A DNA stretch of 64,000 nucleotides from an uncultured Pseudodesulfovibrio sp. Lineage in GTDB: Bacteria > Desulfobacterota > Desulfovibrionia > Desulfovibrionales > Desulfovibrionaceae. Where the stretch lies: the NCBI RefSeq assembly GCF_963664965.1, contig NZ_OY761823.1, positions 1,374,001 through 1,438,000 on the forward strand. Reading direction: 5' to 3'. Below are positions 20,806 through 28,297 of the stretch, one piece after another. Position 1 is the first letter of the stretch, and each line of letters opens with the position of its first letter. A model generated the notes under the pieces. The model was given only the letters and a program-made list of their open reading frames with translations. It had not been told where the DNA came from and ran no database searches. A program made the translations under genes and the position numbers.

Positions 20806-22182
20806 ATGGTATTACTCAGACATACACCCAAGGAAGTCACGGAGCGCAAGGCGCTCATGATCAACCCGGCCAAGACGTGCCAGCCCATCGGCGCCATGTA
20901 CGCGGCCCTTGGCATCAAGGGATGCCTGCCGCACAGTCATGGTTCGCAGGGGTGCTGCGCCTATCACCGCTCCACCCTGACACGGCACTACAAGGAGCCC
21001 ATCTCCGCCGCCACCTCTTCCTTCACTGAAGGTGCATCCGTGTTCGGCGGGCAGGCCAACCTCATCCAGGCCATCGACAACATCTTCACGGTCTATGAAC
21101 CCGAGGTCATCGCAGTGCATACCACCTGCCTGTCCGAGACCATCGGCGACGACCTGAACCAGATCCGCGACAAAGCGCAGAAGACCGGGAAAATTCCCGA
21201 AGGCAAAACCGTCATCGGCGCTTCGACCCCGAGCTACGTCGGTTCCCATGTCACCGGCTTCTCCAACATGGTCAAGGCCATGGCGCAACTGGCCGAACCT
21301 TCCGGCAAAAAGTCCGGCAAGGTGAACATCATTCCCGGCTGGGTCGAACCCTCGGACATGGAAGAGATCAAGCGCCTGTCCGCAATGGTCGGCGTGGACA
21401 TCACCATGTTCCCCGACACCTCCGGCGTGCTGAACGGTCCCCTGACCGGCGAATACAGGATGTTCCCGGACGGAGGCGTGACCATCGACGAGCTCAAGGG
21501 GGCAGGCGACGCCACCGGCACCCTTGCCCTCGGCGAATGGTGCTCCGCGGACGCGGCCCGCTGGCTGGACTCCAAGTGCAAGGTTCCCTGCACCGTGTTG
21601 GACATGCCGTTCGGCCTCGCCGCAACCGACCGCTTCATCGACGTGCTGCACACCGTGGCAGGCGTCCCGGTCCCGGACTCCGTGGCCTTTGAGCGCGGCC
21701 AGCTCGTGGACATGATCTCGGACATGCACCAGTACCTTTACGGCAAGCGCGTTGCCATCTGGGGCGACCCGGACCAGCTCATCTCCATGTGCGAGTTCCT
21801 CGTATCCCTCGACATGCAGCCCGTTTATGTCGTCACCGGCACCCCGGGCAAGAAGTTCGAGAAGCGCATCAAGGAAATCTGTGCCGACCAGCCCTTTGAA
21901 GTGAAGGTCAAGGCCAAGGGCGACATGTTCCTGATGCATCAGTGGATCAAGAACGAGCCGGTCGACCTGCTCATCGGCAACTCCTACGGCAAACACATAG
22001 CCCGTGATGAGGATATCCCGCTGGTACGCTGGGGCTTCCCCATTCTGGACCGTCAGGGCCACCAGTACTTCCCGACAGTCGGCTACAAGGGCGGACTCAG
22101 GTTGCTTGAGCTCATGCTTGGCAGGCTCCTGGACCGCAAGGACCGGGATGATTCCGAGCAGACCTTCGAGTTGGTTCTGTAG
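20806..22182 (+). CDS. nifK: nitrogenase MoFe protein beta chain
   Basis: 458 residues. P-cluster Cys appear in NPAKTCQPIGAMYA, GSQGCCAYHRS and HTTCLSETIGDD. It lacks the N-terminal extension of aerobic proteobacterial NifK, which fits an anaerobe-type enzyme. It starts 15 bp after nifD behind GAGGGAG. Confidence 0.98.
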   Translation: MVLLRHTPKEVTERKALMINPAKTCQPIGAMYAALGIKGCLPHSHGSQGCCAYHRSTLTRHYKEPISAATSSFTEGASVFGGQANLIQAIDNIFTVYEPEVIAVHTTCLSETIGDDLNQIRDKAQKTGKIPEGKTVIGASTPSYVGSHVTGFSNMVKAMAQLAEPSGKKSGKVNIIPGWVEPSDMEEIKRLSAMVGVDITMFPDTSGVLNGPLTGEYRMFPDGGVTIDELKGAGDATGTLALGEWCSADAARWLDSKCKVPCTVLDMPFGLAATDRFIDVLHTVAGVPVPDSVAFERGQLVDMISDMHQYLYGKRVAIWGDPDQLISMCEFLVSLDMQPVYVVTGTPGKKFEKRIKEICADQPFEVKVKAKGDMFLMHQWIKNEPVDLLIGNSYGKHIARDEDIPLVRWGFPILDRQGHQYFPTVGYKGGLRLLELMLGRLLDRKDRDDSEQTFELVL

Positions 22183-22198
22183 CACACCCAACCCCATG

Positions 22199-22231
22199 CC
22201 CGGAGCGGGACTCTTCCCCTCCCGCTCCGGG
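22199..22231 (+). promoter_or_regulatory. intercistronic hairpin after nifK
   Basis: CCCGGAGCGGGA pairs with TCCCGCTCCGGG around a 9-nt loop; no T run follows. It could stabilise the nifHDK part of the message or partly end transcription, giving more structural than accessory protein. Confidence 0.6.
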
Positions 22232-22259
22232 TGCACCCTCAACCGGAAAAGGTGCGACA

Positions 22260-23432
22260 ATGACCACCCAGACTTCATATGAAAACCACCCCTGTTTCGG
22301 TTCGGCGGCACGCCGTTCTGCCGGACGCATTCATCTGCCGGTGGCCCCCCGCGCCAATACGCGTATCAGGTTTGTTGCCAGCGGTAGGCCTGCAAGGTCC
22401 GCCATGACGCCCGAAGAGGGGGTGACATGGCTCGAACAGGTCATGGGCGAAGGTATCCACATCGATATGGTCGCCATTACCGGTCCCGGCGATCCGTTGG
22501 CCGTGCCTGCTCCGACCCTGCACACCTTGCGCCTCGTGCGCGAAAAATACCCAGATGTTTCCCTGTGTCTGACCACTACGGGCCTTGGCGGCGACGAACT
22601 GGCAGAGGAACTCGCCGAAATCGGGCTGTCCCACATCACGGTGCTGGTGGATGCTGTGGCCCCGGAAGTGGCGGAGAAGCTCTACGCATGGATCCGTCCC
22701 TCCACAAGAACCGTCCCCCTGTCCGAAGGCGCCGTCTTGCTCATGAACGAGCAGGCCCGCGCGGTCACCGCATTCAGGAAGGCGGGCATCCCCGTCAAGG
22801 TCAATACCACTGTGTATCCCGGTTACAACGCAGGGCACGTGGAAGAGATCGCCAAGGCCATGGCCCTGCTCGGCGCGGACATCATGGCCGTGGTTCCGTT
22901 CTGTCCCGAAGGGGAGAGCGAAGAATTTCCGGGCGAACCCAGTGTCGAACTGCTCGCGACCGTGCGTAATCGGGCGGCCCGCCATATCGACCTTATGCCC
23001 GCATGGGAAAAGTGCGGCGAGTCTATCGTCGGAACCGCGCTCCTGGATGGTGAAAAGCTCATCCCGTCAACCCTGCCCAAGCCGACCAAGGAACGGCCTA
23101 ATGTGGCCGTGGTCAGCAGCAACGGCATGGATATCGACCTGCATCTCGGTCACGCTTCCAAGCTGCTCATTTACGGTCCGCGTGAAGATGGTCTCGCCTG
23201 TCTGCTCGAAACCCGTAACGCGCCTGCTCCGGGGAGTGGGCCTTCAAGGTGGGAACAGCTTGCCAGTACGCTCGACGATTGCTTCGTGCTGCTGGCGGCC
23301 AATGCGGGCGAGCGTCCCAGAACGAATTTAAGCCGCCTCGGCATCTCCGTGATCGTCACGGACGAAGAGATCGAAGGCACCGTCGACGTGCTTTACGGCG
23401 GCGGCAAGAAGAAGGGCAAGTGCCGCAAGTAG
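22260..23432 (+). CDS. NifB-like protein lacking radical-SAM cysteines, with NifX/NafY-type domain
   Basis: 390 residues, colinear with the true NifB at 27029. Shared landmarks: NHPCFG at the N-terminus, GRIHLPVAP, GPGDP, SHITVLVDAV, LYAWIR, VKVNTTVYPG. But the radical-SAM triad C30/C34/C37 of NifB corresponds here to A32, I36 and V39, so it cannot hold the SAM-cleaving cluster that way. NifB's C19 and the HCxxC pair near residue 257 are also gone; the N-terminal His-Pro-Cys is kept. Residues 282-380 form the FeMo-co-binding NifX/NafY/NifB-C domain (VAVVSSNGMDIDLHLGHA). The frame is intact and begins behind AAGGTG, so it is a maintained gene. It may be a cofactor-carrier or scaffold protein; no separate nifX or nafY lies in the cluster. 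Confidence 0.85.
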   Translation: MTTQTSYENHPCFGSAARRSAGRIHLPVAPRANTRIRFVASGRPARSAMTPEEGVTWLEQVMGEGIHIDMVAITGPGDPLAVPAPTLHTLRLVREKYPDVSLCLTTTGLGGDELAEELAEIGLSHITVLVDAVAPEVAEKLYAWIRPSTRTVPLSEGAVLLMNEQARAVTAFRKAGIPVKVNTTVYPGYNAGHVEEIAKAMALLGADIMAVVPFCPEGESEEFPGEPSVELLATVRNRAARHIDLMPAWEKCGESIVGTALLDGEKLIPSTLPKPTKERPNVAVVSSNGMDIDLHLGHASKLLIYGPREDGLACLLETRNAPAPGSGPSRWEQLASTLDDCFVLLAANAGERPRTNLSRLGISVIVTDEEIEGTVDVLYGGGKKKGKCRK

Positions 23433-23461: not shown

Positions 23462-23764
23462 ATGGCTATCCCAGAAAGAATGATCATCTGTTGTCAGAGT
23501 TTCCGCGCAGGCGGCGAACCAAAAGGCATCTGCCACAAGCAGACTGACGGTTTCCTTCAGTACATCGAAGAGGAAATCATTGATCGCGGTCTCGACGCGC
23601 TGGTGGTGGCAAGCTCCTGCCTCAAGCAGTGTGAGTCCGGTCCCATCATCGTTGTTCAGCCTGAGAACTGGTGGTTCAAGGGCGTGGATTCCGAAGAGGC
23701 CATCGACGAGATCCTGGACGCTCTCGAAGAGGGCGAACCCTGCGCCGAATATTTGGCCGCCTAG
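23462..23764 (+). CDS. thioredoxin-like [2Fe-2S] ferredoxin
   Basis: 100 residues. MIICCQSFR near the N-terminus, a Cys in GICHKQ, and SSCLKQCESGPIIVVQPENWW match the Shethna-type thioredoxin-fold [2Fe-2S] ferredoxins that often accompany nif genes. ATG 23462 is chosen: AAAGGAGAGAG precedes it, and earlier in-frame starts lie inside the previous gene. It may carry electrons to nitrogenase or to cofactor synthesis, or protect the enzyme; the sequence does not decide. Confidence 0.88.
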   Translation: MAIPERMIICCQSFRAGGEPKGICHKQTDGFLQYIEEEIIDRGLDALVVASSCLKQCESGPIIVVQPENWWFKGVDSEEAIDEILDALEEGEPCAEYLAA

Positions 23765-23776
23765 AGAGGGTATGCC

Positions 23777-24232
23777 ATGCCGAAAGCCGTGACCATCCGC
23801 CCTGCACGCCATTCAGACATCGACAGTCTCGTTTTGCTCCTTGGGGAACTGTTTTCCATTGAGGAGGATTTCGTTGTCGAGGGAGAGAGACAGCGACGCG
23901 GTCTGGAAATGTTGCTGAATCAAGGTCGGGGACGCATCCTGACCGCTGTGTCCGCTGATGGAACTGTCGTTGGCATGTGCACGGGGCAGTTGACGGTTTC
24001 CACGGCTGAAGGCGGTCCCGCCGTCCTTATCGAGGACGTCATCGTCCGTGAGGATTGGCGGGGCCATGGCGTGGGGGCGCAGCTCATGGATTCCATTACC
24101 GCATGGGCGCGCGACAACGAGGCGACCCGCATCCAACTGCTGGCCGACAGGAACAATCAGCCTGCACTGCAATTTTACAAATACCTTGGTTGGGAACCGA
24201 CACAACTGATTTGTCAGAGAAAACGACTGTAA
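23777..24232 (+). CDS. GNAT-family acetyltransferase in the nif operon
   Basis: 151 residues. The acetyl-CoA loop is VREDWRGHGVGAQLM, and NQPALQFYKYLGW is the C-terminal family motif. It stands 12 bp after the ferredoxin and 18 bp before nifE, so it is co-transcribed with nif genes. Its acceptor is unknown; acetylation of a nitrogenase component or a small molecule are both open. Confidence 0.85.
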   Translation: MPKAVTIRPARHSDIDSLVLLLGELFSIEEDFVVEGERQRRGLEMLLNQGRGRILTAVSADGTVVGMCTGQLTVSTAEGGPAVLIEDVIVREDWRGHGVGAQLMDSITAWARDNEATRIQLLADRNNQPALQFYKYLGWEPTQLICQRKRL

Positions 24233-27028: not shown

Positions 27029-28297
27029 ATGCATAAGGACATCACCAAGCACCCCTGTTTCAACAAGGAAACCGCAGGAAGCTGCGGCCGTGTACACCTG
27101 CCCGTGGCACCTAAGTGCAACATCCAGTGCAACTACTGCAACCGCAAGTACGACTGTGTGAACGAGTCCCGCCCCGGCGTGACGAGCAGTGTGCTCAAGC
27201 CGTTTCAGGCTGTTGAGTACATGGATAAAGTGCTGGCAAAAGAACCGAGGATAACGGTTGCAGGTATTGCCGGACCGGGTGACCCGTTTGCCAATCCAGC
27301 CGAAACCATCGAGACCATGCGCCTGCTTAACCAGAATCATCCCCACCTCCTGTTCTGCCTGTCGAGCAACGGTATGGGCATCCTGCCGTATCTTGACGAC
27401 ATCGCCGAACTCGGTGTGTCCCATGTGACCATCACCATTTCCGCCGTGGACCCGAAGGTCGGCGCGCAGATTTACGCTTGGGTCAAAGACGGCAATGTCG
27501 TCTACCACGGTGAGAAGGGGGCTGAAGTGCTCCTTGACCGTCAGCTCCGGGCTATCAAGGGCCTCAAGGAGCGTGGCATTATTGTCAAGGTCAATTCCAT
27601 CGTCATTCCCGGCATCAACGATGAACATATCATCGAAGTCGCCAAAGTCTGTGCCACTCTTGGTGCGGACATACAGAACATGATTCCGCTCAAGCCCACG
27701 GCTGACACTCCGTTCTCGCACTTGTCCGAACCGGGGCGGGAAACCGTGTTGCCGCTGCGTAGGGAAGGCGGAGAGTTCATTGAACAGATGACGCATTGCA
27801 AACGGTGTCGAGCCGATGCGGTCGGACTGCTCGGCAAGGATCAGTCCGCGTCCCTGTGCGGCACTTTGCAGGCCTGCTCCAAACTCAAGCCGCTGGAAGC
27901 CAAGTTGGCGCGTCCGCACGTCGCCGTCGCCACCCGTGAGGGCATGCTCGTGAATCAGCATCTCGGCGAGGCCACGTCCTTCCAGATTTGGTCCGAGGCT
28001 GATACCGGTGGTTACCGTTTCATTGAGGAAAGACAGGCTCCGGAGGTGGGCTGCGGTCCTCAGCGATGGGCCGATTTGTCCGACGTGCTCAAGGACTGCC
28101 GTGCCGTTCTGTCCGCTGCCATCGGTGAAACTCCACGCATGACTCTGGAGAAGAACGGGGTGAAGCCGTACGTTGTGGATGGGGTTATTGAAGATGCCTT
28201 GCGATTTGTTTACGAGGGCGGTGATATGAATGCTCTGAAGGTTCGTCGGACCGGTATTGGCGGCGGGTGCGCTGGAGGTGGAGGCGGCTGCGGCTAG
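27029..28297 (+). CDS. nifB: FeMo-cofactor biosynthesis radical SAM protein NifB
   Basis: 422 residues. C30-x3-C34-x2-C37 (PKCNIQCNYCNRKYDC) is the radical-SAM triad, with HPC at 8-10 and C19; HCKRCRADAVGLLG carries C257 and C260, which with the N-terminal residues hold the two precursor [4Fe-4S] clusters. The C-terminal third is the NifX-like cofactor-binding domain and ends in a Gly/Cys-rich tail (IGGGCAGGGGGCG). It fuses two clusters and inserts the central carbon from SAM. Last gene of the operon. Confidence 0.97.
   Translation: MHKDITKHPCFNKETAGSCGRVHLPVAPKCNIQCNYCNRKYDCVNESRPGVTSSVLKPFQAVEYMDKVLAKEPRITVAGIAGPGDPFANPAETIETMRLLNQNHPHLLFCLSSNGMGILPYLDDIAELGVSHVTITISAVDPKVGAQIYAWVKDGNVVYHGEKGAEVLLDRQLRAIKGLKERGIIVKVNSIVIPGINDEHIIEVAKVCATLGADIQNMIPLKPTADTPFSHLSEPGRETVLPLRREGGEFIEQMTHCKRCRADAVGLLGKDQSASLCGTLQACSKLKPLEAKLARPHVAVATREGMLVNQHLGEATSFQIWSEADTGGYRFIEERQAPEVGCGPQRWADLSDVLKDCRAVLSAAIGETPRMTLEKNGVKPYVVDGVIEDALRFVYEGGDMNALKVRRTGIGGGCAGGGGGCG

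Follow-up and report, generated by a model that had tools for sequence, protein, structure and literature searches.

Why would a nitrogen fixation gene run carry two genes for NifB-like proteins, one of them without the cysteines of a radical S-adenosylmethionine (SAM) enzyme? The question is raised by a 64,000-nucleotide stretch of DNA from an uncultured Pseudodesulfovibrio sp. (contig NZ_OY761823.1, positions 1,374,001 to 1,438,000; the whole stretch is referred to here as the window), in which a clean open reading frame (ORF) at 22260..23432 (+) encodes a NifB-like paralogue of 390 amino acids, with AGGTG five bases ahead of its ATG. The order of the run is nifH-nifI1-nifI2-nifD-nifK-paralogue-fdx-GNAT-nifE-nifN-nifB, and its last gene (27029..28297, +) is a canonical nifB that carries CNIQCNYC and scores 398.1 bits against TIGR01290 (cut-off 343.65). 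A protein search at E up to 0.001 found no NifB-like genes in the genome beyond these two. A preliminary description of this DNA had noted the clean reading frame, the second NifB-like gene in the same run and the replacement of the Cys triad, all of which hold, and had proposed a role as a carrier, a scaffold or a partner of NifB. The analyses presented here indicate that the Cys-less paralogue is a real, widespread and conserved NifB-derived protein, which from its sequence should lack radical-SAM activity. With moderate confidence, we read it as a carrier of the NifB cofactor (NifB-co) or of the iron-molybdenum cofactor (FeMo-co), with delivery on the NifDK side preferred over shuttling to NifEN.

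Residue equivalences were assigned by alignment to Methanothermobacter NifB (MthNifB), using the ligand list of PMC9692996. A32, I36 and V39 stand where the three radical-SAM cysteines would be, in the former radical-SAM loop (residues 32-39, ANTRIRFV; 22353..22376, +), which contains the basic residues R35 and R37. Equivalents of K1-cluster ligands are retained: C12 of the HPC motif (residues 10-12; 22287..22295, +) aligns with MthNifB C18, H25 (22332..22334, +) with the His ligand H31, and C103 (22566..22568, +) with C115. The equivalent of MthNifB C260 is lost and that of C263, the second Cys of Cx2CRxDAxG, is kept as C252 (WEKCG; 23013..23015, +); the reported absence of an HCxxC pair is therefore correct for the first Cys and not for the second. 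The flexible loop is shortened, and its Cys and the equivalent of E53 are gone. Compared with a published list of NifB motifs (PMC5715403), the paralogue has HPC, lacks CxxxCxxC, and has SGRP and TGPG in place of ExRP and AGPG (Glu lost, RP kept), WEKCGESIVG in place of Cx2CRxDAxG (with a single Cys and neither R nor D) and TVLVD in place of TxTxN, the last being of little weight since the canonical NifB of the window itself has TITIS. The barrel landmarks GPGDP (residues 75-79), SHITVLVDAV and LYAWIR are present in the window's protein, as had been described, together with HPC and the C-terminal domain. Thus, although it shares with NifB (TIGR01290) the barrel fold, HPC, GPGDP, the second K2-type Cys and a NifX-like C-terminal domain, the paralogue is not expected to make NifB-co, given its lack of CxxxCxxC, the ExRP Glu and the first Cys of Cx2CRxDAxG and its TIGR01290 score of 176.5 bits, well under the nifB cut-off.

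Domain profiles recognise both halves of the protein. PF04055 matches at 42.9 bits (cut-off 29.5), so that a domain scan labels the paralogue a radical SAM protein despite its lost cysteines, and PF02579 matches residues 289-372 at 39.4 bits (cut-off 26.3). The latter match lies in a NifX-like C-terminal domain (residues 278-384; 23091..23411, +), for which the family profile matches core-NafY 1p90 (E 2.5e-6) and NifX 9ian (E 0.0041); the NifX equivalog model TIGR02663 was absent among the matches of the window's paralogue. Aligned to 1p90, H295 of an HLG motif (23142..23144, +) corresponds to NafY H121 (HFG) and, by family, to NifX H35. NafY H121 is a key FeMo-co ligand (PMC8496260), and NifX H35 binds NifB-co, an analogous His being carried by other NifX-like proteins, including the C-terminal domain of NifB (PMC13128457). 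H295 and C341 (23280..23282, +), a Cys that is conserved in NifB too, are present in 103/103 rows of the family alignment; conservation of the C-terminal domain, which the preliminary description had suggested checking without naming this His, is thereby confirmed. An AlphaFold2 model made from the same alignment (mean pLDDT 91.2, pTM 0.84) had NifB structures 7jmb and 7bi7 as its best Foldseek matches (7jmb_A, E 3.6e-23, TM by target 0.86). In this predicted fold the NifB match spans the barrel, and NifX is also among the matches (9ian_F, rank 50, E 1.1e-6, TM by target 0.59).

Loss of the triad is a property of the family. The family alignment comprises 103 rows and excludes four over-long rows, rows of more than 90% identity, fragments and four Cys-bearing proteins that are considered separately below. 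CxxxCxxC is absent from all of these rows and from all 122 orthologous ORFs, which represent 121 loci and 117 distinct sequences, as expected for a conserved loss. A sequencing error in the window is rejected on the same count. Cys occupies the three radical-SAM positions in 0, 4 and 14 of 91 rows, and within residues 30-42 two or more Cys are found in 4 of the 103 rows and one Cys in 25. Position 35 is Arg in 87 rows and Lys in 6, and position 37 is Arg in 87 and Lys in 8. Sixteen residues are invariant (P76, G77, G108, W144, R146, P147, A283, H295, G297, A299, R319, R330, W331, D340, C341 and G350), and the C-terminal domain is the most conserved region, with a mean consensus of 0.72, compared with 0.59 for the barrel and 0.37 for the linker. 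The HPC motif, which the preliminary description had emphasised, is not family-wide (H10 in 41/103 rows, C12 in 79/103).

Among 149 genomes of the same taxonomic family, 87 have a NifB-like match that reaches at least E 1e-20, a count that includes true NifB. At least 45 of these 87 carry the Cys-less gene, as judged by locus, and 4 carry the Cys-bearing variant in the same slot; the figure of 45 is a lower bound, with the pieces found in G082 and other unlisted matches outside the count. At E 1e-80, matches occur in 29 of 36 genomes within the genus, and 111 of 395 genomes of the phylum have a NifB-like match, again with true NifB counted in. A scan of genome contigs found 45 loci titled Pseudodesulfovibrio, Desulfovibrio, Desulfobulbaceae and kin, or with broad group names; five genomes were seen twice via two collections (L032/L098, L033/L099, L013/L034, L038/L140 and L043/L116). 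Outside the phylum, the search consisted of this contig scan, with patterns derived from the window's one protein, and of a plasmid collection, in which the best three matches were the NifB proteins of N. vulgaris plasmids (32-35% identity). A metagenome-assembled genome carries its orthologue in two overlapping frames (L072:4763-6050), a natural or an assembly frameshift.

The gene also keeps its place. Homologues of eleven nif genes of the window were placed at each locus, three duplicate loci having been dropped before counting; an unrelated ORF between two of these genes would stay invisible to this procedure. nifK precedes and the ferredoxin gene follows the Cys-less gene at 114 of 121 loci, and the other seven comprise five cut by a contig end, L072 with its two frames, and L113, in which the open frame of the ferredoxin starts early. 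In the window, these neighbours are nifK (20806..22182, +) and a 2Fe-2S ferredoxin gene (23462..23764, +; start inferred from the ORF), the latter scoring below the cut-offs of both NF041612 and NF041613. The preliminary description had suggested a search for orthologues between nifK and nifE, a place that is borne out on the nifK side and only partly on the other: among the 49 Cys-less loci with at least 5 kb of downstream sequence, nifE lies within it at 21 and is missing from it at 28. nifE comes soon after the paralogue in the window, as it does at most loci of Desulfovibrionaceae. Six genomes that were tested (five of the 28, plus L061) do contain nifE and nifN, and on the one chromosome to which L063 belongs, nifE-nifN lies ~473 kb from the paralogue gene.

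Four genomes contain, in the same slot, a paralogue with radical-SAM cysteines (L077:9026-10426, L085:5183-6508, L078:5500-6861 and L086:6756-8120; nifK-gene-fdx in 4/4, nifE downstream in 4/4). These proteins have the HLG motif. Their retained cysteines are opposite to those of the window's protein: CNIQCKYC or CNVQCRFC is kept, whereas the Cys of HPC and the counterpart of C115 are gone. We built a tree of 102 rows by a quick method after removing the columns of the N-terminal motif; its NifB sequences all come from this phylum, it has no outgroup, and some of its branches are long. In it, canonical NifB forms one side of a branch (support 98) and is the sister clade to the paralogue, the Cys-bearing slot proteins, of which three of four passed the tree filters, form a branch of their own (99) near the NifB side, and the Cys-less proteins require one change, with weak support (66). 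Orthologues that keep the three cysteines, which the preliminary description had named as a sign of error, are matched by four slot proteins, but these stand on a separate branch. From these sequences, the simplest reading would be that a single duplication took place and that each half of the active site was then lost independently of the other.

The paralogue is under purifying selection that is looser than that on nifK or nifE. Among 325 within-genus pairs of rows from the family alignment, 20 had a synonymous divergence (dS) of 0.05-0.6; the ratio of nonsynonymous to synonymous divergence (dN/dS) in these pairs had a median of 0.39 and a range of 0.23-0.58 (20/20 pairs), with medians of 0.43 for the barrel (up to 0.67) and 0.28 for the C-terminal domain (up to 0.62). 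The value of about 1 that had been associated with relaxed selection is not approached. A fuller set gave 0.13-0.23 for the paralogue, 0.06-0.08 for nifK and 0.05-0.08 for nifE in three of its nearest pairs, and across the 23 non-identical nearest pairs listed the ranges were 0.13-0.57, 0.06-0.23 and 0.04-0.20, respectively.

How might a NifB without its radical-SAM cluster be put to use? In the explanation that we prefer, an old duplication was followed by loss of this cluster from the copy behind nifK, which should then neither cleave SAM nor make carbide. Its NifX-like C-terminal domain should hold NifB-co or FeMo-co at an apical metal via His295, as NifX H35 and NafY H121 do, and the dead barrel would serve for docking or shielding. 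Delivery or insertion at apo-NifDK, a job like that of NifY and NafY, would be more likely than shuttling of NifB-co to NifEN, because the gene stays behind nifHDK and before the ferredoxin gene even where nifE is not close. The position behind nifK where nifE is not near also favours a role on the NifDK side over that of a NifB partner; the carrier or scaffold role proposed earlier is consistent with the triad loss, the selection, the slot and the invariant His, and its NifB-partner version loses ground. A carrier is further favoured by the C-terminal domain, which combines the lowest median dN/dS with the highest conservation and contains the invariant H295 and C341.

Several observations weigh against this explanation. 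The argument for docking at NifDK is one of gene order, and nifE does come downstream at 21 of the 49 loci. NifB's own NifX domain could do the same job, and deletion of NifX in A. vinelandii leaves diazotrophic growth unaffected (PMC13128457). At the protein level, the paralogue evolves about three times faster than nifK or nifE (median proportion of nonsynonymous differences, pN, 0.258 vs 0.079 for nifK and 0.078 for nifE). In N. vulgaris DP4, the nif plasmid runs from nifK to the ferredoxin gene without the paralogue, as do loci L096 and L156. Members of the family can thus dispense with the gene, and it is accessory because relatives without it show no obvious substitute.

A carrier could instead work as NifX does, taking NifB-co from active NifB to NifEN, with the NifB-shaped barrel mimicking NifB at its docking site on NifEN. 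The evidence from the His applies equally to this alternative, and nifE close behind the paralogue in the window and most Desulfovibrionaceae loci is in its favour, but the place behind nifK is kept at the 28 of 49 loci with no nifE within at least 5 kb downstream, and we consider it unlikely. More unlikely still is a scaffold or NifB partner, in which a K1-type [4Fe-4S] cluster bound by C12, H25 and C103 of the barrel would feed or steady active NifB, perhaps in a heterodimer. The ligand candidates are well kept near the window's protein: among the 33 rows with at least 55% identity, C12 is present in 33, H25 in 31, C103 in 31 and C252 in 32, with only 60 of 390 columns invariant, and a MaNifB variant reduced to its K1 cysteines binds a single [4Fe-4S] cluster, His43 serving as nitrogen ligand (PMC7145814). 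H25 and C103 also mostly co-occur over the 103 rows (42 both, 53 neither, 8 discordant, 4+4; Fisher 1.5e-19, uncorrected for kinship). Against this, each is missing in 57/103 rows, the loop Cys and Glu are lost, and C12 does not follow the pattern. In a tree-aware test of H25 and C103, 3.8 of 5 independent pairs agreed and none opposed (p 0.125), too few for significance to be reached, and C103 with C252 did not follow the pattern on the tree. Outside Desulfovibrionaceae, H25 is missing in 41 of 42 rows and C103 in 40 of 42 (two rows are fragments).

A family-wide K1 site is therefore rejected (H25 and C103 each in 46/103 rows; C252 in 51/103), and the residues make plausible a lineage-specific cluster site, in which the barrel of the window's own clade may keep a K1-type [4Fe-4S] cluster on C12, H25, C103 and perhaps C252. 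For this clade, the preferred carrier might be extended, tentatively, to a two-site metallocofactor chaperone made from a retired radical-SAM enzyme, in which the K1 half-site would dock or store and the C-terminal His would carry NifB-co or FeMo-co to NifDK, in the position occupied by NifY or NafY elsewhere among diazotrophs. If so, the Cys-bearing copies of the four genomes, whose losses fell on K1 ligands instead, would show that the halves of the NifB active site were shed separately after one duplication. It is improbable that the paralogue is a relic, a duplicate drifting to loss and kept by linkage in the nif operon: its absence from some relatives, the two frames of L072 and its fast evolution fit such a history, but dN/dS was 0.23-0.58 in all 20 unsaturated pairs, 16 residues are invariant over 103 rows, and the gene is kept in deep lineages. 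A new small-molecule role seems very improbable; here a pocket with R35 and R37 would bind an anion (e.g. homocitrate), or the barrel would store cofactor, a proposal suggested by Arg or Lys at position 35 in 93/103 rows and at position 37 in 95/103 and by the invariant W144, R146 and P147.

The paralogue is distinct from each of the known systems that it resembles. Like NifX, it has a PF02579-type domain with the cofactor-ligand His, but it adds a barrel of ~270 residues, has no TIGR02663 match, and is encoded behind nifK and not behind nifEN. A high-resolution report of the handover of NifB-co from NifX to NifEN appeared only in 2026 (PMC13128457). NifY and NafY bind the cofactor-less MoFe protein, before cofactor insertion (PMC6016461), and in the gene strings nifJHDKTYENX of Klebsiella and nifHDKTYENX of Azotobacter nifTY lies between nifK and nifE (PMC6429469). 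The paralogue shares the slot after nifK with nifY of these organisms and has the NafY-like H-[F/L]-G His, but differs in having a NifB barrel as its N-terminal part. NifY itself does not have the His (PMC13128457), and by H295 the paralogue would fall on the cofactor-binding side, with NifX and NafY. Extra nifB genes that are thought to be non-functional are also known from Paenibacillus (NifB3 and NifB4), but their two-domain copies keep all the listed NifB motifs, two NifB3 proteins lack the C-terminal Cys motif, and loss of the triad is not reported in the accessible part of that paper (PMC8287671).

Relatives of the paralogue have been annotated in the literature, and may have been set aside there, under other labels. 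In the cluster of Pseudodesulfovibrio methanolicus, nifB_1 and nifB_2 are annotated, which answers the preliminary description's question of whether orthologues had been described; cysteine loss is unmentioned in the available text of that report (PMC11505543). In a survey of 390 putative NifB proteins, 28% were dropped, and most of these, being without CxxxCxxC and with a NifX domain, were taken as NifX (PMC5715403), a label that would not fit the paralogue family, in which a NifB barrel is present too. No description of a Cys-less paralogue was found in the titles and abstract beginnings listed by searches of open-licence PubMed Central literature, which mostly excludes subscription journals. 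The D. vulgaris Hildenborough cluster DVUA0007-DVUA0016 is important for growth on N2, with one gene lacking data (PMC10102598). Going by DP4, Hildenborough probably lacks the paralogue too, so that this dataset is no test of it.

The preliminary description had argued from the absence of nifX and nafY in the cluster. This absence is true of the window, but it is a weak argument, since 10 relatives without the paralogue show neither near nifB. In these 10 genomes, no PF02579 hit near nifB other than NifB itself was found at E up to 0.01, with some nifHDK loci outside view: for L152, L154 and L155 the locus covered is nifENB only, and a NifX gene by a distant nifHDK would be missed. Complementarity between the paralogue and a separate nifX was not seen in them. 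Genome G120 has a second, weaker NifB-like match outside the listing. The window's genome has ten NifX-family hits at E up to 1, two of which are the nif genes; four of the other eight were scanned, and three were weakly MrpORP-like and one was without a match. The three NifX-family domains outside the nif cluster that weakly resemble MrpORP iron-sulfur carriers lie at G000:C1:3074299-3076746 and 3270721-3270996.

The paralogue has the appearance of a dedicated carrier derived from the maturase, conserved in a large group of anaerobic diazotrophs that includes many sulfate reducers. If it works in this way, it would be a clear example of an enzyme that became a carrier and a naturally inactive NifB that could help to trap cofactor complexes, and possibly a part for nitrogenase engineering. 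It is also a warning against taking additional "nifB" copies in such genomes for active NifB.

Other features of the gene run were examined alongside the paralogue. The NCBIfam scan covered the two P-II proteins, the ferredoxin, the GNAT protein, nifE, nifN and nifB, and nifH, nifD and nifK were named from sequence and place; nifE and nifB are above their cut-offs, and nifN scores 311.2 against a cut-off of 326.8. The interval between nifK and the paralogue contains a 13-bp GC-rich hairpin (22198..22232, +; -35.8 kcal/mol for the 77-nt stretch, z -4.98). An uninterrupted stem of at least 9 bp is predicted in the 90 nt after nifK at 87 of 121 loci (53/68 in Desulfovibrionaceae, 34/53 in others), compared with 18/71 in Desulfovibrionaceae behind the ferredoxin gene, counts made without shuffled controls and with duplicate genomes kept in. 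The hairpin may stabilise the nifHDK mRNA or dampen read-through. The GNAT acetyltransferase gene (window 23777-24232) is a frequent member of the nif gene run after the ferredoxin gene and evolves fast (median pN 0.307).
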